From positions 1 through 27,900 of the IMG/VR virus record IMGVR_UViG_3300010354_000482: a stretch of DNA of 27,900 nucleotides. One strand, written 5' to 3'. Below the pieces are notes generated by a model. The model was not told where the DNA came from and made no database searches. It saw only the letters and a program-made list of their open reading frames with translations. How positions within the stretch are numbered: position 1 is the first letter of the stretch; the number at the start of each line of letters is the position of its first letter. Source of the stretch: a virus. The position numbers were made by a program, and so were the translations under genes. Shown here one piece after another: positions 12,101-26,612 of the stretch.

Positions 12101-15100
12101 GAATAACATTTTCTTCCGCACCTGCAACATCTGAAGTATTTGGTTGGAAATTGAATGATACTGTTCAATCTGATCAATTAGATTTAACTTACTTAAAAAC
12201 ATATCAAGTAGCTGGTTATAATTTAATTTTTAGAGATAAAAATTTAAATTATGATATTGAAACTAATAATGTAAAAAATCCAGATAGTTATTATGAAATT
12301 GAAAGAAAGAAATTAAATGGATTTGTTTATACAAATGGAACAACTGTATCTGGAATTGGAACTAAATTTAAGATTTCAAATCCAGAGTATTCGACAAGTT
12401 ATGTCGAAGTTTTAAATGAACTAAATTCATTTAATGGAACCACATCAACATTTAAACTTACATATTTGAATGGTGTAGATTTTACATATTCAAATACAGA
12501 TTCATACTGTGTTAATTTAAATAACACAGTATTGACACAAGGAGTTGATTATACTATTAGTGGATCAAATATTATCTTTACAACACCACCTACTAGTGGT
12601 TCTAAGTGTACTGTAACAGTATTTGCTAGTTCTTATACTTCATCTGATTTAGATCCAATAAACAAATCTTTTGATGGTTCTACAACCACATTTCCTTTAG
12701 TTAGAGATGGTATTCCTCTGTATGTTTATAGACAGGGAGATATTTTAGTTCTCAGAAATAACGTTTTACAAAAAATGAGTTCTTCTCATTATTCAATTAA
12801 TGATGATAGAATTACATTTGTAGATCCATTACAACCAAATGAATCTTTAAAATTAATTCATTTTAGAAGACTTTTAGATCCAGTAAATCATCACAATGCA
12901 CTAATTGATGATTTTAAATATTTTGATAGTGTCACTACACAATTTGGTGTTACTTCTAACGGAAGTAATGTAAGTGGAAATTTAATAATGTTTAGAAATG
13001 GTGTTTATCAAAATCCCACAAGTACATATACAAATAACTCAACTAGTATTACTTTTGTTGATGCACCAGATCCTAATGAAGAGATTCATGGAAAATGCTT
13101 TACAGCAAATTCTCAATACATGAATTTTAATAACAGAACAAGTACTGAAGTTACACTCACTGGCAATCCTAATATAACATCTGGATTCTTCTTAGTATTC
13201 TTAGATGGTGTTGTACAAACCTATAATGTAAATACTGCAGAATCTTACGGAGTAACTTATAGTAACACTACTAAAAAACTTACATTTGACGAATCAATTT
13301 CATCATTTACTGATGTTGTTGTTCTTTGGTATTCTCAAGCAGTAGTAACCCTACAGAATAGAACTATTCCAAATACTACTACATTAACATATAATTTAAA
13401 TAACGCAAGTGGTGGTGGATCTTACACACCGACAAATAAAGGTGGACTTTTAGTATTAATTGATAATGTTGTACAAAAATTTACAACAGATTCATTACTT
13501 CCTGGTGCATATACTGTTGGAACAACCACCATTACATTTAATGATATTCAACCTTTAAATGTTGGTTCTACAATCAGATTCATTTATTTTGGAGATGATT
13601 TAAAACATCTTGATGAGATGAATGAAACTGTAAATGATGTAAGAAAGAAATTTAGATTGTTGTCTAATTTTACAAATTTTGTTGGTGCAGAATCAGACTT
13701 ATTTGTTTCTGTAAATGGTGTAATTCAAAATCCAGTATCAGATTACACAGTTTCCAATTCTTATATTACTTTTGATAATCCTCCTGCACTATTTGATGAT
13801 GTTTTTGCCATTGGAATGTATGCTAATGAAAACATGCCATTAACTTTAGTTAGTGGTACTACATATCAATTACCAAGAAATTTAACTACTGTAGAAAGAA
13901 ATTCATTACTTGCTTTCTATAATGGTTCTGCACAACTGGTTAATGCAGGATTTACATTTACAGCAAATAATAGAATCACATTTGACGAACCTTTAGACAC
14001 TGTTTTAGGTGCAACTACATTTGCTTTCTTACTTAATGGTGGTACTCCAATAGATGAGGTAAATGTTCCTTTCAATGGTTCTAAAACACAATTTACTTTA
14101 TTTAAGAATGGAAGTGTTTTCTATCCATTAGACGGTCAAATTTCTCCACAAAATTTATTAGTTACAAAAAATGGTTTACTTTTAGATGGTGGAGTTGATT
14201 ATACTGTTAGTAGTCCTGGTACTAGAATAAACTTTACTACTGCACCAGTACTTACAGATAAAATTGATATCACTTGTCATGGTAATTTTATAAAACTTGA
14301 TACAAAAACAACTACATCTGGAACCACAGTATACAATTTAACAAGAAGTTCTTCTGCATATTATGTAAATGCTTTAATTGACAGACCAAGAAATTATGAA
14401 AATCAAATTTTAGCAATTTATAATGGTCAATTACTCAGTCCATTGAGAGATTACTTCATTGAAAATAATAAAATTAATTTGAAGTTTAATCCTGCAAATT
14501 CTGGTAAATTAGTATTACTTGATTATAGAGGAACCGATTCTGATGTAGAAGTAAAAGATTACTATGATAATGTTTTAGTTGGAGATAAAATTAAAATAAC
14601 TGGTGAAAGTGACTATCGTACTGTAAGTGCAGTTCTTTCCCCAACAGTTTTAACAACTACATCATCACCAACTAATCTACAAGTTAATTTTGTGGGAAGT
14701 GCAAATATTTCTAATGGAATGGTTACTTCTATTACTGTAACAAATTCTGGAAGAAATTATGCAAAAGATACTTATATTGTACCATATGGTTGTGGGTCTG
14801 AAGCATTATGTCAAGTTAATGTTGATGAATATGGTCAAATTCAAACTATTTCACCAATTATTGGTGGTTATAATTATTACACTCAACCAACTTTACTAGT
14901 TACAAATAGTCTCTATGCTATTAACTCTAGACCTTTACAATCAAATCAGGTACAACGTTTGTATAAATTACAATCTAATATTAACAATACTATTGATAAT
15001 AATATTCAGTTAAATACTACTACAAATCTTCCAACATCTCCTTGGTCTTTAACTGTTACTAGTGCATTCGGTGTTGGAGCTGGAGCAATTTTAATTCCTC

Positions 15101-23416: not shown

Positions 23417-23647
23417 ATGGAATTAAAAGTAGAAGGACACTCAAATTTATATAGAGACTCGGAAACTGGCGCGATTGTTGTAAAAGACAAAAATTCGTAT
23501 CAAAACTATATGGACAATCTCAGGTCGAGACTCTATAATAAGACAGTACAGGAATCACTGGTTGATGACGTTAAAAAATTAAAAAATGATATGAAAAACA
23601 TCAACCAGTTATTACAAAAAATTATGGAGAAACTAGATGATAGATGA
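23417..23647 (+). CDS. 76-aa conserved hypothetical phage protein
   Basis: The gene begins 2 nt after the giant DUF4815-type gene and overlaps the next ORF by 11 nt. The product has an N-terminal part of VEGHSNLYRDSETGAIVVKD type (residues 5-24) and a C-terminal helical, Lys-rich coiled-coil-like segment (VKKLKNDMKNINQLLQKIME, about 52-71). From memory, similar short proteins with 'LYRD..TGAI' N-termini occur at this place in marine T4-like phages; their function is not known to me. Position between a baseplate protein and the neck genes suggests a small virion or assembly factor (inference). Confidence 0.75.
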   Translation: MELKVEGHSNLYRDSETGAIVVKDKNSYQNYMDNLRSRLYNKTVQESLVDDVKKLKNDMKNINQLLQKIMEKLDDR

Positions 23648-23819
23648 TCTTCCTCTTAGTAAACAATTTGAATATAATAAATTATGCAGAGATATTGATA
23701 CATTAACTGATTTAAATGATCTAAGGGATTTGTCAAAAAAATTTCTTTTGTTGTATCTCAGTCAACAACATGTAGTCTCAAAATTAGCAGATTGGGATTT
23801 TAAATTAGATAAAAAATAG
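23637..23819 (+). CDS. 60-aa conserved hypothetical phage protein
   Basis: The start overlaps the previous gene by 11 nt, with GGAGA about 9 nt upstream. The 60-residue product is predicted mostly helical, with SKQFEYNKLCRDIDTLTDLN (8-27) and FLLLYLSQQHVVSKLADWDF (36-55). No membrane segment or signal peptide is convincing, because the Leu-rich stretch is short. It ends just before the terminator at 23829, so it closes the transcription unit begun by the late box at 17018. Function unknown. Confidence 0.7.
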   Translation: MIDDLPLSKQFEYNKLCRDIDTLTDLNDLRDLSKKFLLLYLSQQHVVSKLADWDFKLDKK

Positions 23820-23828
23820 TTGTTTTTA

Positions 23829-23862
23829 TAGTCTCCTTATAAATATTAAGGAGACTATTTTT
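23829..23862 (+). terminator. perfect 11-bp hairpin terminator before gp13
   Basis: TAGTCTCCTTA (23829-23839) pairs perfectly with TAAGGAGACTA (23847-23857) around a 7-nt loop, followed by five T (23858-23862). It starts 10 nt after the stop of the 60-aa gene and fits a rho-independent terminator. Upstream T-rich sequence (23823-23827) may make it weakly bidirectional. Confidence 0.85.
23838..23845 (+). promoter_or_regulatory. late promoter box within the terminator hairpin
   Basis: TATAAATA is an exact T4 late-promoter match and covers the last two bases of the left stem and most of the loop. With T4 spacing, initiation would be near 23851, inside the right stem arm. The resulting transcript would lack the left arm and so could not form the terminator. 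It would have a leader of about 33 nt with AGG about 8 nt before the gp13 ATG. Confidence 0.55.
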
Positions 23863-23863
23863 G

Positions 23864-23871
23864 TATAAATA
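23864..23871 (+). promoter_or_regulatory. second exact late promoter box, close to gp13
   Basis: A second TATAAATA lies 26 nt after the first. Predicted initiation near 23877 would leave only about 7 nt before the gp13 ATG at 23884, close to a leaderless mRNA. Either box could be the working one; the upstream box gives the more usual leader. Confidence 0.55.
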
Positions 23872-23883
23872 TAGGTCAAATAT

Positions 23884-24681
23884 ATGGCAGCACCAAGTTC
23901 TAGAGCTCAACTAAAAGAATATTGTCTTAGGAAGCTTGGCAAGCCTGTTATCGAGATCAACGTAGATGATGATCAAATTGAAGACTTAATTGATGATACC
24001 TTACAATTGTACAGGGAAAGAAGTTATGATGGAGTTGAAAGAGTTTACTTGAAATATAAGTTAACTTCTCAAGATATCGCTAACGCAAAGGCTAATACAG
24101 CAACTGTCTATCCAAGTGGTTTATCATTTTCTGAAGCCACTGGTGGATTTTTAACTCTACCAGATCATATTTTGGGAGTGAATGGAATTTTTAAAATCTC
24201 TAATGCATATGTAAACAATATGTTTGGTTTTAGATATCAATTTTTCTTAAATGATTTTTATAATTTTTATGCATATGATATTCTAAATTATTACATTACT
24301 ATGTCATATTTGGAAACTCTAGACTTTATGTTGGAGGGGAATAAAAGTATTAGATATCATAAAACTCAAAATAAATTAATTATTGATTTGGATTGGGATC
24401 GTATTCAACCAAATGATTGGTTGGTAATTGAATGCTTTAGAGCATTAGATCCCACACAATATACAAAAGTCTATAATGAAATTTTTATTAAAAAACATTT
24501 AACTTCTTCTATCAAAAAACAGTGGGGTCAAAACCTCATTAAATTTGAAGGTATTCAAATGCCTGGTGGTGTTACTTTTAATGGAAGACAACTATATGAT
24601 GACGCAATTGAAGAATTGCGAGAACTAGAAGAAAAAATGTCTAGTACATATGAAGTTCCACCACTAGATATGATCGGGTAA
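23884..24681 (+). CDS. gp13: neck protein gp13
   Basis: The 265-residue product resembles T4 gp13 (309 aa), a head-completion/neck protein that joins capsid and tail after DNA packaging. Recognisable family stretches are YCLRKLGKPVIEINVDDDQI (13-32), DLIDDTLQLYRERSYDGVER (34-53), HKTQNKLIIDLDW and IKKQWGQNLIKFEG. The C-terminal run GGVTFNGRQLYDDAIEELRE also belongs here. The protein starts with the usual 'SRAQLKEYCLRKLG' type N-terminus. It follows a terminator and two late promoter boxes, so it begins a new late unit with gp14, gp15 and gp16. No strong Shine-Dalgarno sequence is seen. Confidence 0.9.
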   Translation: MAAPSSRAQLKEYCLRKLGKPVIEINVDDDQIEDLIDDTLQLYRERSYDGVERVYLKYKLTSQDIANAKANTATVYPSGLSFSEATGGFLTLPDHILGVNGIFKISNAYVNNMFGFRYQFFLNDFYNFYAYDILNYYITMSYLETLDFMLEGNKSIRYHKTQNKLIIDLDWDRIQPNDWLVIECFRALDPTQYTKVYNEIFIKKHLTSSIKKQWGQNLIKFEGIQMPGGVTFNGRQLYDDAIEELRELEEKMSSTYEVPPLDMIG

Positions 24682-24687
24682 TCAAAT

Positions 24688-25554
24688 ATGAAAAATGTAT
24701 ATTTCACATTTGGAACCAAATCAGAACAAAGACTATATGAGGATTTAATCATAGAGTCTTTGAAAATTTATGGTATGGATGTATATTATCTTCCAAGAGA
24801 AATTGTAAAAGAAGATGAAATATTTGAAGAAGATATCCTTTCTAAATTTGATGAAAATTACATGATTGAAATGTATTTGGGAACATATGATGGTTTTGAA
24901 GGTGATGGATCATTGTTTACTAAATTTGGTGTGAGAATTAGTGATGAAGCAACTTTTATTGTTTCAAAAAGAAGATGGGAAGATTTAGTATCATCATCTT
25001 ATAATCTTGTTTCTTCACATAGACCAAATGAAGGAGATTTAATTTATTTTCCACTAACTAAGGGATTATTTCAAATTAAATTTGTTGAACATGAAATTCC
25101 TTTTTGGCAATTAGCTAATGTTGCTACTTACCAGTTAAGAGCAGAATTAATTGAGTACTCACAAGAGAGACTTGAGACAGGAGTTGAAGAAATTGATTTA
25201 ATTCCAGAAGAAGCTGGTATTAGTTTGAAACTTATTATGACAACTGGTTCTGGTGATTTTGAACGTCTGGAAGAAGTTACGGGTGGTACAAGTGGTGCAA
25301 CTGGAAAGGTTGTTGCTTGGAATGCTCCAACAAAAACTCTAGAAATAATTGATGTTACTGGAAAATTTTTACCAAATGAGACTATAACTGGTAGTTGGAG
25401 TGGAGTTAGTAGAGTATTATCTACATATAATACTCTAGATATCGATTTATTAGATTACGCAGAAAACAAACCGATTGAAATTGCATCTGATGCAATCCTT
25501 GACTTTAGTGAAGGTAATCCATTCGGTGAATTTGGAGACATGGGAGTATTCTGA
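24688..25554 (+). CDS. gp14: neck protein gp14
   Basis: The 288-residue product fits T4 gp14 (256 aa), partner of gp13 in the neck. Residues 1-170 carry family-typical sequence: YEDLIIESLKIYGMDVYYLP (12-31), ISKFDENYMIEMYL-like acidic region, YDGFEGDGSLFTKFG, RRWEDLV, RPNEGDLIYFPLT and FEIKFVEHE-like PFWQL. Between about 185 and 250 there is an extra beta module, EEVTGGTSGATGKVVAWN followed by VTGKFLPNETITGSW, that also appears in the giant baseplate proteins. The C-terminus ends with AILDFSEGNPFGEFGDMGVF, typical of this family. Its TGA overlaps the gp15 ATG by one base. Confidence 0.88.
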   Translation: MKNVYFTFGTKSEQRLYEDLIIESLKIYGMDVYYLPREIVKEDEIFEEDILSKFDENYMIEMYLGTYDGFEGDGSLFTKFGVRISDEATFIVSKRRWEDLVSSSYNLVSSHRPNEGDLIYFPLTKGLFQIKFVEHEIPFWQLANVATYQLRAELIEYSQERLETGVEEIDLIPEEAGISLKLIMTTGSGDFERLEEVTGGTSGATGKVVAWNAPTKTLEIIDVTGKFLPNETITGSWSGVSRVLSTYNTLDIDLLDYAENKPIEIASDAILDFSEGNPFGEFGDMGVF

Positions 25555-26612
25555 TGTTAGGAACACATTTTTACAACGAAACAATAAGAAAGACTATTGT
25601 TGCATTTGGAACTCTTTTTAATAACATTGAGTTACAAAGAAAAGATGGTCAGGGTAATTTAGTTCAAACTATGAAAGTGCCCTTGGCATATGGACCGAGA
25701 GAAAAGTTTTTAGCTCGTGTTCAAAATGCGCCAGATTTATTAGAAAATCAAAAAACGCAAATTACATTACCTAGAATTGCGTTTGAGATGGTAGGTATTT
25801 CATATGATAATACCAGAAAAACAAATACACTTCAGATGGTTAGTGCCCCTGGAGCAAACAATGAAACTAGAAAAAGACAATATGTTCCAGTTCCATATAA
25901 TTTAGATTTTGAACTTAGCATCATTTCAAAAAATAATGATGATATGCTTCAAATTGTTGAACAAATTTTACCATATTTTCAACCAACTTTTACATTGACA
26001 ATTAATATGAGTCCTGAAATGGGTGATAAAAAAGATACTCCCATTACATTAAACAATATTAATATTCAAGATGATTATGAAGGTGATTATATTAAACGTA
26101 GAAGTTTAATCTATGTTTTAAGTTTTACAGCAAAAACTTATTTCTATGGTCCAATTTCTGCAACAGATGGTATCATTAAACAAGTCAATATCGATTATTA
26201 TACAAATATCAATGCTGCATCAAGAGAAGTAAGATATACTGTAGAACCTGCAGCATTACAAGATTATAATAATGATGGAACTGCACTTGATTCATCAGTT
26301 GCAGTTAATACAAATAGTAACACCATTACATTAAATAATCACGGATTTATTACTGGAGATTTTGTACAGTATCGTGATAATGGTGCAACTACTATAGGTG
26401 GTTTAATGGACACAGGAACTTATTATATTATTAAAATAGATAATAATAGTTTCCGTCTTGCAACAACAAAGAGAAATGCTTTAGATAATTATTCTGTAGA
26501 TATTACATCTACAGGTTCTGGAACTACTCATAAATTCTCTGTAATTAATGCTTTAGATGATGATTTAGTAGAACCAGATGATAATTTTGGTTTCAATGAG
26601 GAATGGTCATAA
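25554..26612 (+). CDS. gp15: tail sheath stabilizer/completion protein gp15 with added domain
   Basis: gp15 forms the hexameric tail terminator that stabilises the sheath and joins the tail to the neck. The N-terminal 240 residues match the T4-like type: MLGTHFYNETIRKTIVAFGT (1-20), NIELQRKD, VPLAYGPREKFLARVQ, TLPRIAFEMVGISYD and KRQYVPVPYNLDFELSI. The product has 352 residues against 272 in T4. The surplus lies at about 248-331: NTITLNNHGFITGDFVQY, then YYIIKIDNNSFRLATT, ending GSGTTHKF. This is a 'HGF.TGD.V.Y' beta module known in many phage and bacterial surface proteins. It overlaps gp14 by 1 nt. Confidence 0.88.
   Translation: MLGTHFYNETIRKTIVAFGTLFNNIELQRKDGQGNLVQTMKVPLAYGPREKFLARVQNAPDLLENQKTQITLPRIAFEMVGISYDNTRKTNTLQMVSAPGANNETRKRQYVPVPYNLDFELSIISKNNDDMLQIVEQILPYFQPTFTLTINMSPEMGDKKDTPITLNNINIQDDYEGDYIKRRSLIYVLSFTAKTYFYGPISATDGIIKQVNIDYYTNINAASREVRYTVEPAALQDYNNDGTALDSSVAVNTNSNTITLNNHGFITGDFVQYRDNGATTIGGLMDTGTYYIIKIDNNSFRLATTKRNALDNYSVDITSTGSGTTHKFSVINALDDDLVEPDDNFGFNEEWS

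Follow-up and report, generated by a model that had tools for sequence, protein, structure and literature searches.

Anatomy of the border upstream of gp13

The window (the whole stretch of viral DNA analysed, 27.9 kb) contains a border between two gene units, the first ending with phrog_27081 and the second opening with the neck gene gp13. Between these genes lie a hairpin, a T-tract and two exact copies of a T4-type late promoter box, one of them partly in the hairpin loop and partly in its stem:

23637-23819, + strand: last gene of the upstream unit (phrog_27081); 8 nt separate the end of its stop codon from the stem
23828-23839, + strand: left arm ATAGTCTCCTTA, from stem search, folding and covariation; the nested box begins with its last two bases
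23838-23845, + strand: candidate nested T4-type late promoter box TATAAATA, two left-arm bases plus six loop bases; predicted start near 23851
23840-23846, + strand: hairpin loop TAAATAT, 7 nt, from stem search
23847-23858, + strand: right arm TAAGGAGACTAT, holding the predicted late start and followed by TTTTG
23857-23863, + strand: T-tract ATTTTTG, the last two stem bases plus the tail
23864-23871, + strand: second TATAAATA, also a candidate late box, 26 nt downstream of the first and directly behind the T-tract; predicted start near 23877
23884-24681, + strand: gp13, the neck gene for head-tail adaptor Ad2, which opens the downstream unit
24688-26612, + strand: gp14 (neck) and gp15 (tail sheath stabiliser), downstream unit

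The C-terminal stretches of gp14 and gp15 resemble tail-fibre or endosialidase beta-barrel domains and vary among relatives, so that the two appear as neck proteins with fibre-like additions.

The hairpin (23828-23858) is a perfect 12-bp stem with only four G-C pairs and a folding energy of -15.9 kcal/mol. A sequence-only reading of this DNA had described a perfect 11-bp stem at 23829-23857 followed by a T-tract; the perfect pairing and the T-tract are borne out, and the stem is one pair longer than proposed. The T-tract is short, with five T broken by a G (TTTTTG), and its tail score, counted from 23859, is -4.56, a value reached or passed at 0.5% of window positions. The window therefore has, in modest form, the stable stem followed at once by a T-tract that characterises intrinsic terminators. 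Folding of the RNA from 23815-23890 gave -19.2 kcal/mol (z = -4.1), with none of 200 shuffles as good, and perfect stems of at least 12 bp with loops of 3-10 nt arose at 0.05 per dinucleotide-shuffled window (60 shuffles), which together make chance a poor explanation, and a chance hairpin was rejected. A known structured RNA was likewise rejected, as neither the window nor seven relatives matched any Rfam family at the gathering score. Two other perfect stems, each of 11 bp (12504-12532 and 25410-25437), lie within coding sequence; the own-genome search covered the 27.9-kb window.

Late boxes and predicted RNA starts

TATAAATA occurs at just two sites in the 27.9 kb, 23838 and 23864, against 7.2 expected by shuffling. 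The shorter ATAAATA has seven sites (24 expected), all on the plus strand, and five of them lie at gene borders (15441, 17019, 23839, 23865 and 27031). This depletion, strand bias and placement indicate that the box is avoided elsewhere and positioned like a T4-type late promoter. The T4 late box spans -13 to -6 (PMC1524935), a spacing from which we infer a start for the nested box near 23851, inside the right arm; the predicted start of the second box, near 23877, is 7 nt before the gp13 ATG. Both exact boxes named by the sequence-only reading are present, the first overlapping the loop and stem end and the second recurring in relatives. The proposal that RNA from the embedded box would escape the hairpin also holds up in prediction, with folds of -20.1 kcal/mol for read-through RNA and -3.5 kcal/mol for RNA begun at 23851. 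On these sequence features, the box at 23838-23845 is likely a nested late promoter. No gp55-type late sigma factor was seen in the 27.9-kb fragment; gp55 (phrog_234) is present in 9 of 12 relatives' records, including G001, G006, G007, G011 and G012.

Comparison with nested hairpins of T4

We took a census of the 32 TATAAATA sites of T4 with the same program as for the window. It returned a strong nested hairpin at gene e, in a register nearly that of the window (box -9 to +20 in e, -10 to +20 in the window), another at a second site, which from the encoded protein start we take to be I-TevII, and a third case with a weak 7-bp stem and a 22-nt loop. Gene e and the window share a late box in a hairpin loop, a late RNA (predicted, for the window) that lacks the left arm, and the presence of two late boxes; by analogy, the window element would work like the nested promoter of gene e. 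The genes served are different, e being a late gene inside an early RNA whereas the window serves a structural neck gene. T4 I-TevI, I-TevII and segB and Aeh1 mobE likewise have a late promoter sited so that late transcripts cannot form an inhibitory hairpin, but these are homing endonuclease genes under translational control, and I-TevII has no T-tract. The nested geometry is therefore not wholly new, as it was already known from gene e and the I-Tev genes. A published description of the nested element was not found in the literature searched, which is weak evidence of novelty because many subscription papers lay outside its scope. The PeSL (promoter-early stem-loop) cassettes of the T4-type phages RB49 and phi1 reportedly combine a promoter and a stem-loop terminator compactly between genes; they are said to carry early sigma70 promoters in hyperplastic regions, whereas the window's box is of the late type, sits in the hairpin loop and occupies a fixed structural-gene border.

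The hairpins of T4 gene e and the I-Tev genes hide the ribosome site of read-through RNA, a mechanism reviewed for T4 (PMC3014915, PMC2988022). A translational switch of this kind at gp13, in which read-through RNA is silenced, late RNA is translated and termination is minor or absent, would account for the shared geometry and for clades A-D of the gp13 leaders, where the right arm carries AGGAG/CGGAG about 8 nt before the gp13 ATG and so places the Shine-Dalgarno sequence in the stem. We nevertheless consider it unlikely as the explanation of the window element. The window hairpin ends 25 nt before the gp13 ATG (about 17-25 nt across the window and L378-L397), leaving a normally spaced ribosome site uncovered, its GGAG lies about 30 nt upstream of the ATG, and the stem holds neither the Shine-Dalgarno sequence nor the start codon. 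With its ribosome site outside the stem, the window element does not belong to the class that sequesters that site. We also considered, and set aside, an arrangement like the split ribosome site of T4 gene 25 (PMC3014915), as only a weak fold forms between GGAG and the ATG.

The tails point the same way. The e hairpin, which hides its Shine-Dalgarno sequence, and that of I-TevII score -2.2 and lack the T-tract seen at gp13 elements, whereas most gp13 elements score -4.2 to -5.6. Across 111 distinct gp13 leaders, T-runs are longer with strong folds than with weak ones, in a comparison that mixes related sequences. Judged by stem, tail and position, the window hairpin would likely terminate transcription from upstream, and termination is the best single reading of it; the sequence-only reading, which proposed a terminator, is supported in part. 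In clades A-D, where the right arm is the gp13 Shine-Dalgarno sequence, termination and hiding of the ribosome site may both act.

T4 also has a tandem layout (e.g., genes 8/9) of hairpin, T-tract and then TATAAATA, which the second box of the window reproduces; the T4 box stands behind the hairpin, whereas the window has a further box inside it. At several borders of the T4 genome (L461 7187, L464 15837), a terminator-like hairpin and T-tract directly precede late boxes. The T4 wac-13 border (L453 195-225) has a G+C-rich hairpin, GGGGCCGCAAGGCCCC, before gp13, with no late box or T-tract.

Conservation in the window's own group

When gp13 upstream regions were compared, the nearest gp13 relatives (L001-L010) showed no element directly 5' of gp13, giving a first impression of non-conservation that synteny overturned. 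Gene order in these relatives is a large gene, phrog_473, phrog_27081, the element, Ig-like/fibre genes and gp13. The element thus remains behind the same upstream gene and does not adjoin gp13 because inserted genes intervene; the window is without the Ig-like/fibre genes that separate the two in its relatives.

Among 26 distinct leaders of the window's group, the first box is found in 18, the second in 19 and both in 12, and the first box together with at least 10 of 12 paired positions is found in 12. The second box recurs 25-27 nt after the first, and the right-arm core TA[AG]GGAGA is kept in many relatives, even with a left arm that no longer pairs. The boxes are therefore more faithfully kept than the stem in this group. 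L378 retains both stem and T-tract; L382-L388 retain the stem with CTCTCT in place of the T-tract. Most of clades A-E also keep the T-tract. In six relatives (L082, L084, L398, L418, L420 and L431) the box and right-arm core persist although the arms pair poorly, so that the window's group can do without the stem. What speaks chiefly against strict conservation of a terminator is this loss of stem or T-tract in close relatives. The wider retention of the boxes could also mean that two tandem late boxes drive gp13, the hairpin being dispensable and of little consequence, an account that we regard as quite improbable given that several clades have independent stem sequences with strong covariation (below) and that chance would very rarely yield a fold of this quality.

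Covariation and position specificity of the hairpin

We assembled 22 distinct loop-type elements for covariation analysis, three of which (L153, L154 and L377, the last being the L155 contig) came via a pattern that fixes the inner stem and most of the others through protein similarity. Standard pairs fill 94.7% of the pair cells. Double-sided changes number 24, whereas shuffles give 6.7 +/- 1.9 (none of 500 as many) and slid controls at most 7. The position is specific as well: a hairpin overlaps 98 of the 394 distinct TATAAATA contexts, in almost every case 5' of gp13 or the syntenic gene. In the window register, 44 of 332 distinct boxes reach 10 of 12 pairs, compared with 1.4% when flanks are shuffled, and among the other boxes tested in G002, G003 and S-SCSM2R none had such a strong nested stem. 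The idea of a generic trait shared by all late promoters was rejected, as nested stems are rarely seen away from gp13 or its syntenic border. By the measure of this covariation, the hairpin is under selection in several clades.

A hairpin that shields the upstream message at its 3' end, or that serves as a nuclease site, with the box in its loop to save space, would suit a stem 8 nt behind the upstream stop codon and the long stems without a T-tract in L382-L388, but the terminator-like T-tract in most members makes it very improbable.

The same design in other T4-like phages

To survey the design more broadly, we scanned 2.9 million viral contigs with sequence patterns, which do not name the gene. 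The core CCTTATAAATANTAAGG returned 51 stretches of two classes: six pair over 5-9 more bases and are immediately followed by a late gene, and 45 have 0-2 more pairs and lie mostly in coding sequence. Retrieval by gp13 protein similarity yielded further nested hairpins 5' of gp13, with stems TCTCCTTA/TAAGGAGA, TCTCCGTA/TACGGAGA and ACTCCGTA/TACGGAGT. An independent pattern scan with TCCGTATAAATANTACGGA (stem TCTCCGTA/TACGGAGA) found 18 stretches, 16 of them directly 5' of gp13. Cyanophages show a third geometry, TATAAATACCTCTAGgaaaCTAGGGGTATTTTTTT, in which the box enters the left arm; their form, TATAAATACCTCTAG(N4)CTAGRGGTATT, stands directly 5' of the gp13 start in the loci read, and the isolate S-SCSM2R carries it ahead of the gene annotated as neck protein. 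A DNA similarity search of isolated phages with the 65-bp element gave only weak, chance-level matches.

One clade has hairpins of -12 to -23 kcal/mol whose loop carries TATACATA where other clades have TATAAATA. TATACATA occurs 43 times forward and twice in reverse in that clade, against 4 to 2 in TATAAATA-using clades, and a strand bias confined to its own clade suggests that it is probably the late box there; the gp55 of these phages may have altered specificity. Comparison of gp13 upstream regions, the check put forward with the sequence-only reading, thus finds box and stem conserved with strong covariation in several phage groups, and the contrary pattern, a stem kept with its box lost, was seen only as this swap to a late-box-like TATACATA.

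The TATACATA clade comprises L333-L367, with the box upstream of gp13 (e.g., L355 9970), and in L333 and L342 TATACATA also precedes a gene resembling the portal gene. Upstream of gp13 in L016, L017, L051, L058 and L068 are CATAAATAC...AGGGG leaders that look like the cyanophage element, except that the hairpin is reduced or missing; these are possibly precursors or decayed copies of it.

A proposed composite border element between late units

We somewhat favor a model in which the window carries a composite border element between two late units, a hairpin terminator for read-through RNA and a nested late promoter for gp13-gp14-gp15. Read-through RNA from the baseplate/fibre unit would hold both arms, fold the hairpin and most likely stop at the T-tract. 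The late machinery, with a gp55-type sigma, would open the nested box and begin RNA near 23851 in the right arm; this RNA could not form the hairpin and would carry the gp13-gp14-gp15 message. The second box would offer an alternative late start in the ordinary T4 terminator-then-box layout, from which the gp13 RNA would have almost no leader. Where the right arm doubles as the gp13 Shine-Dalgarno sequence, as it does in other phages, read-through RNA would also have its ribosome site masked by the hairpin. From such termination and late starts we infer an effect on gp13 dosage.

More tentatively, and rating it slightly less likely than not, we propose that this is a widespread, unrecognised element of T4-like phages: a late promoter within a hairpin that terminates only RNA from upstream, fixed before the neck operon, with the right arm serving as the gp13 ribosome site in most clades. 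The element would have persisted or evolved anew on different stems, using the TATACATA box in one clade, and would insulate neck-protein dosage from the variable fibre genes upstream.

If true, this would show how compact phage genomes end one unit and begin the next using the same bases, would account for hairpins at gp13 borders in otherwise unrelated leaders and would extend the principle of T4 gene e from lysis timing to assembly genes. In abundant aquatic T4-like phages, late promoters have been poorly predicted, and prediction failed in pelagimyophages (PMC7029224); the element would provide a sequence-defined, testable handle on late gene dosage in such phages.

In L378-L397 and L422, the second late box, where present, lies exactly at -15 (once at -16) relative to the Ig-like gene, a placement that predicts starts about 2 nt before the ATG and hence a nearly leaderless late mRNA.
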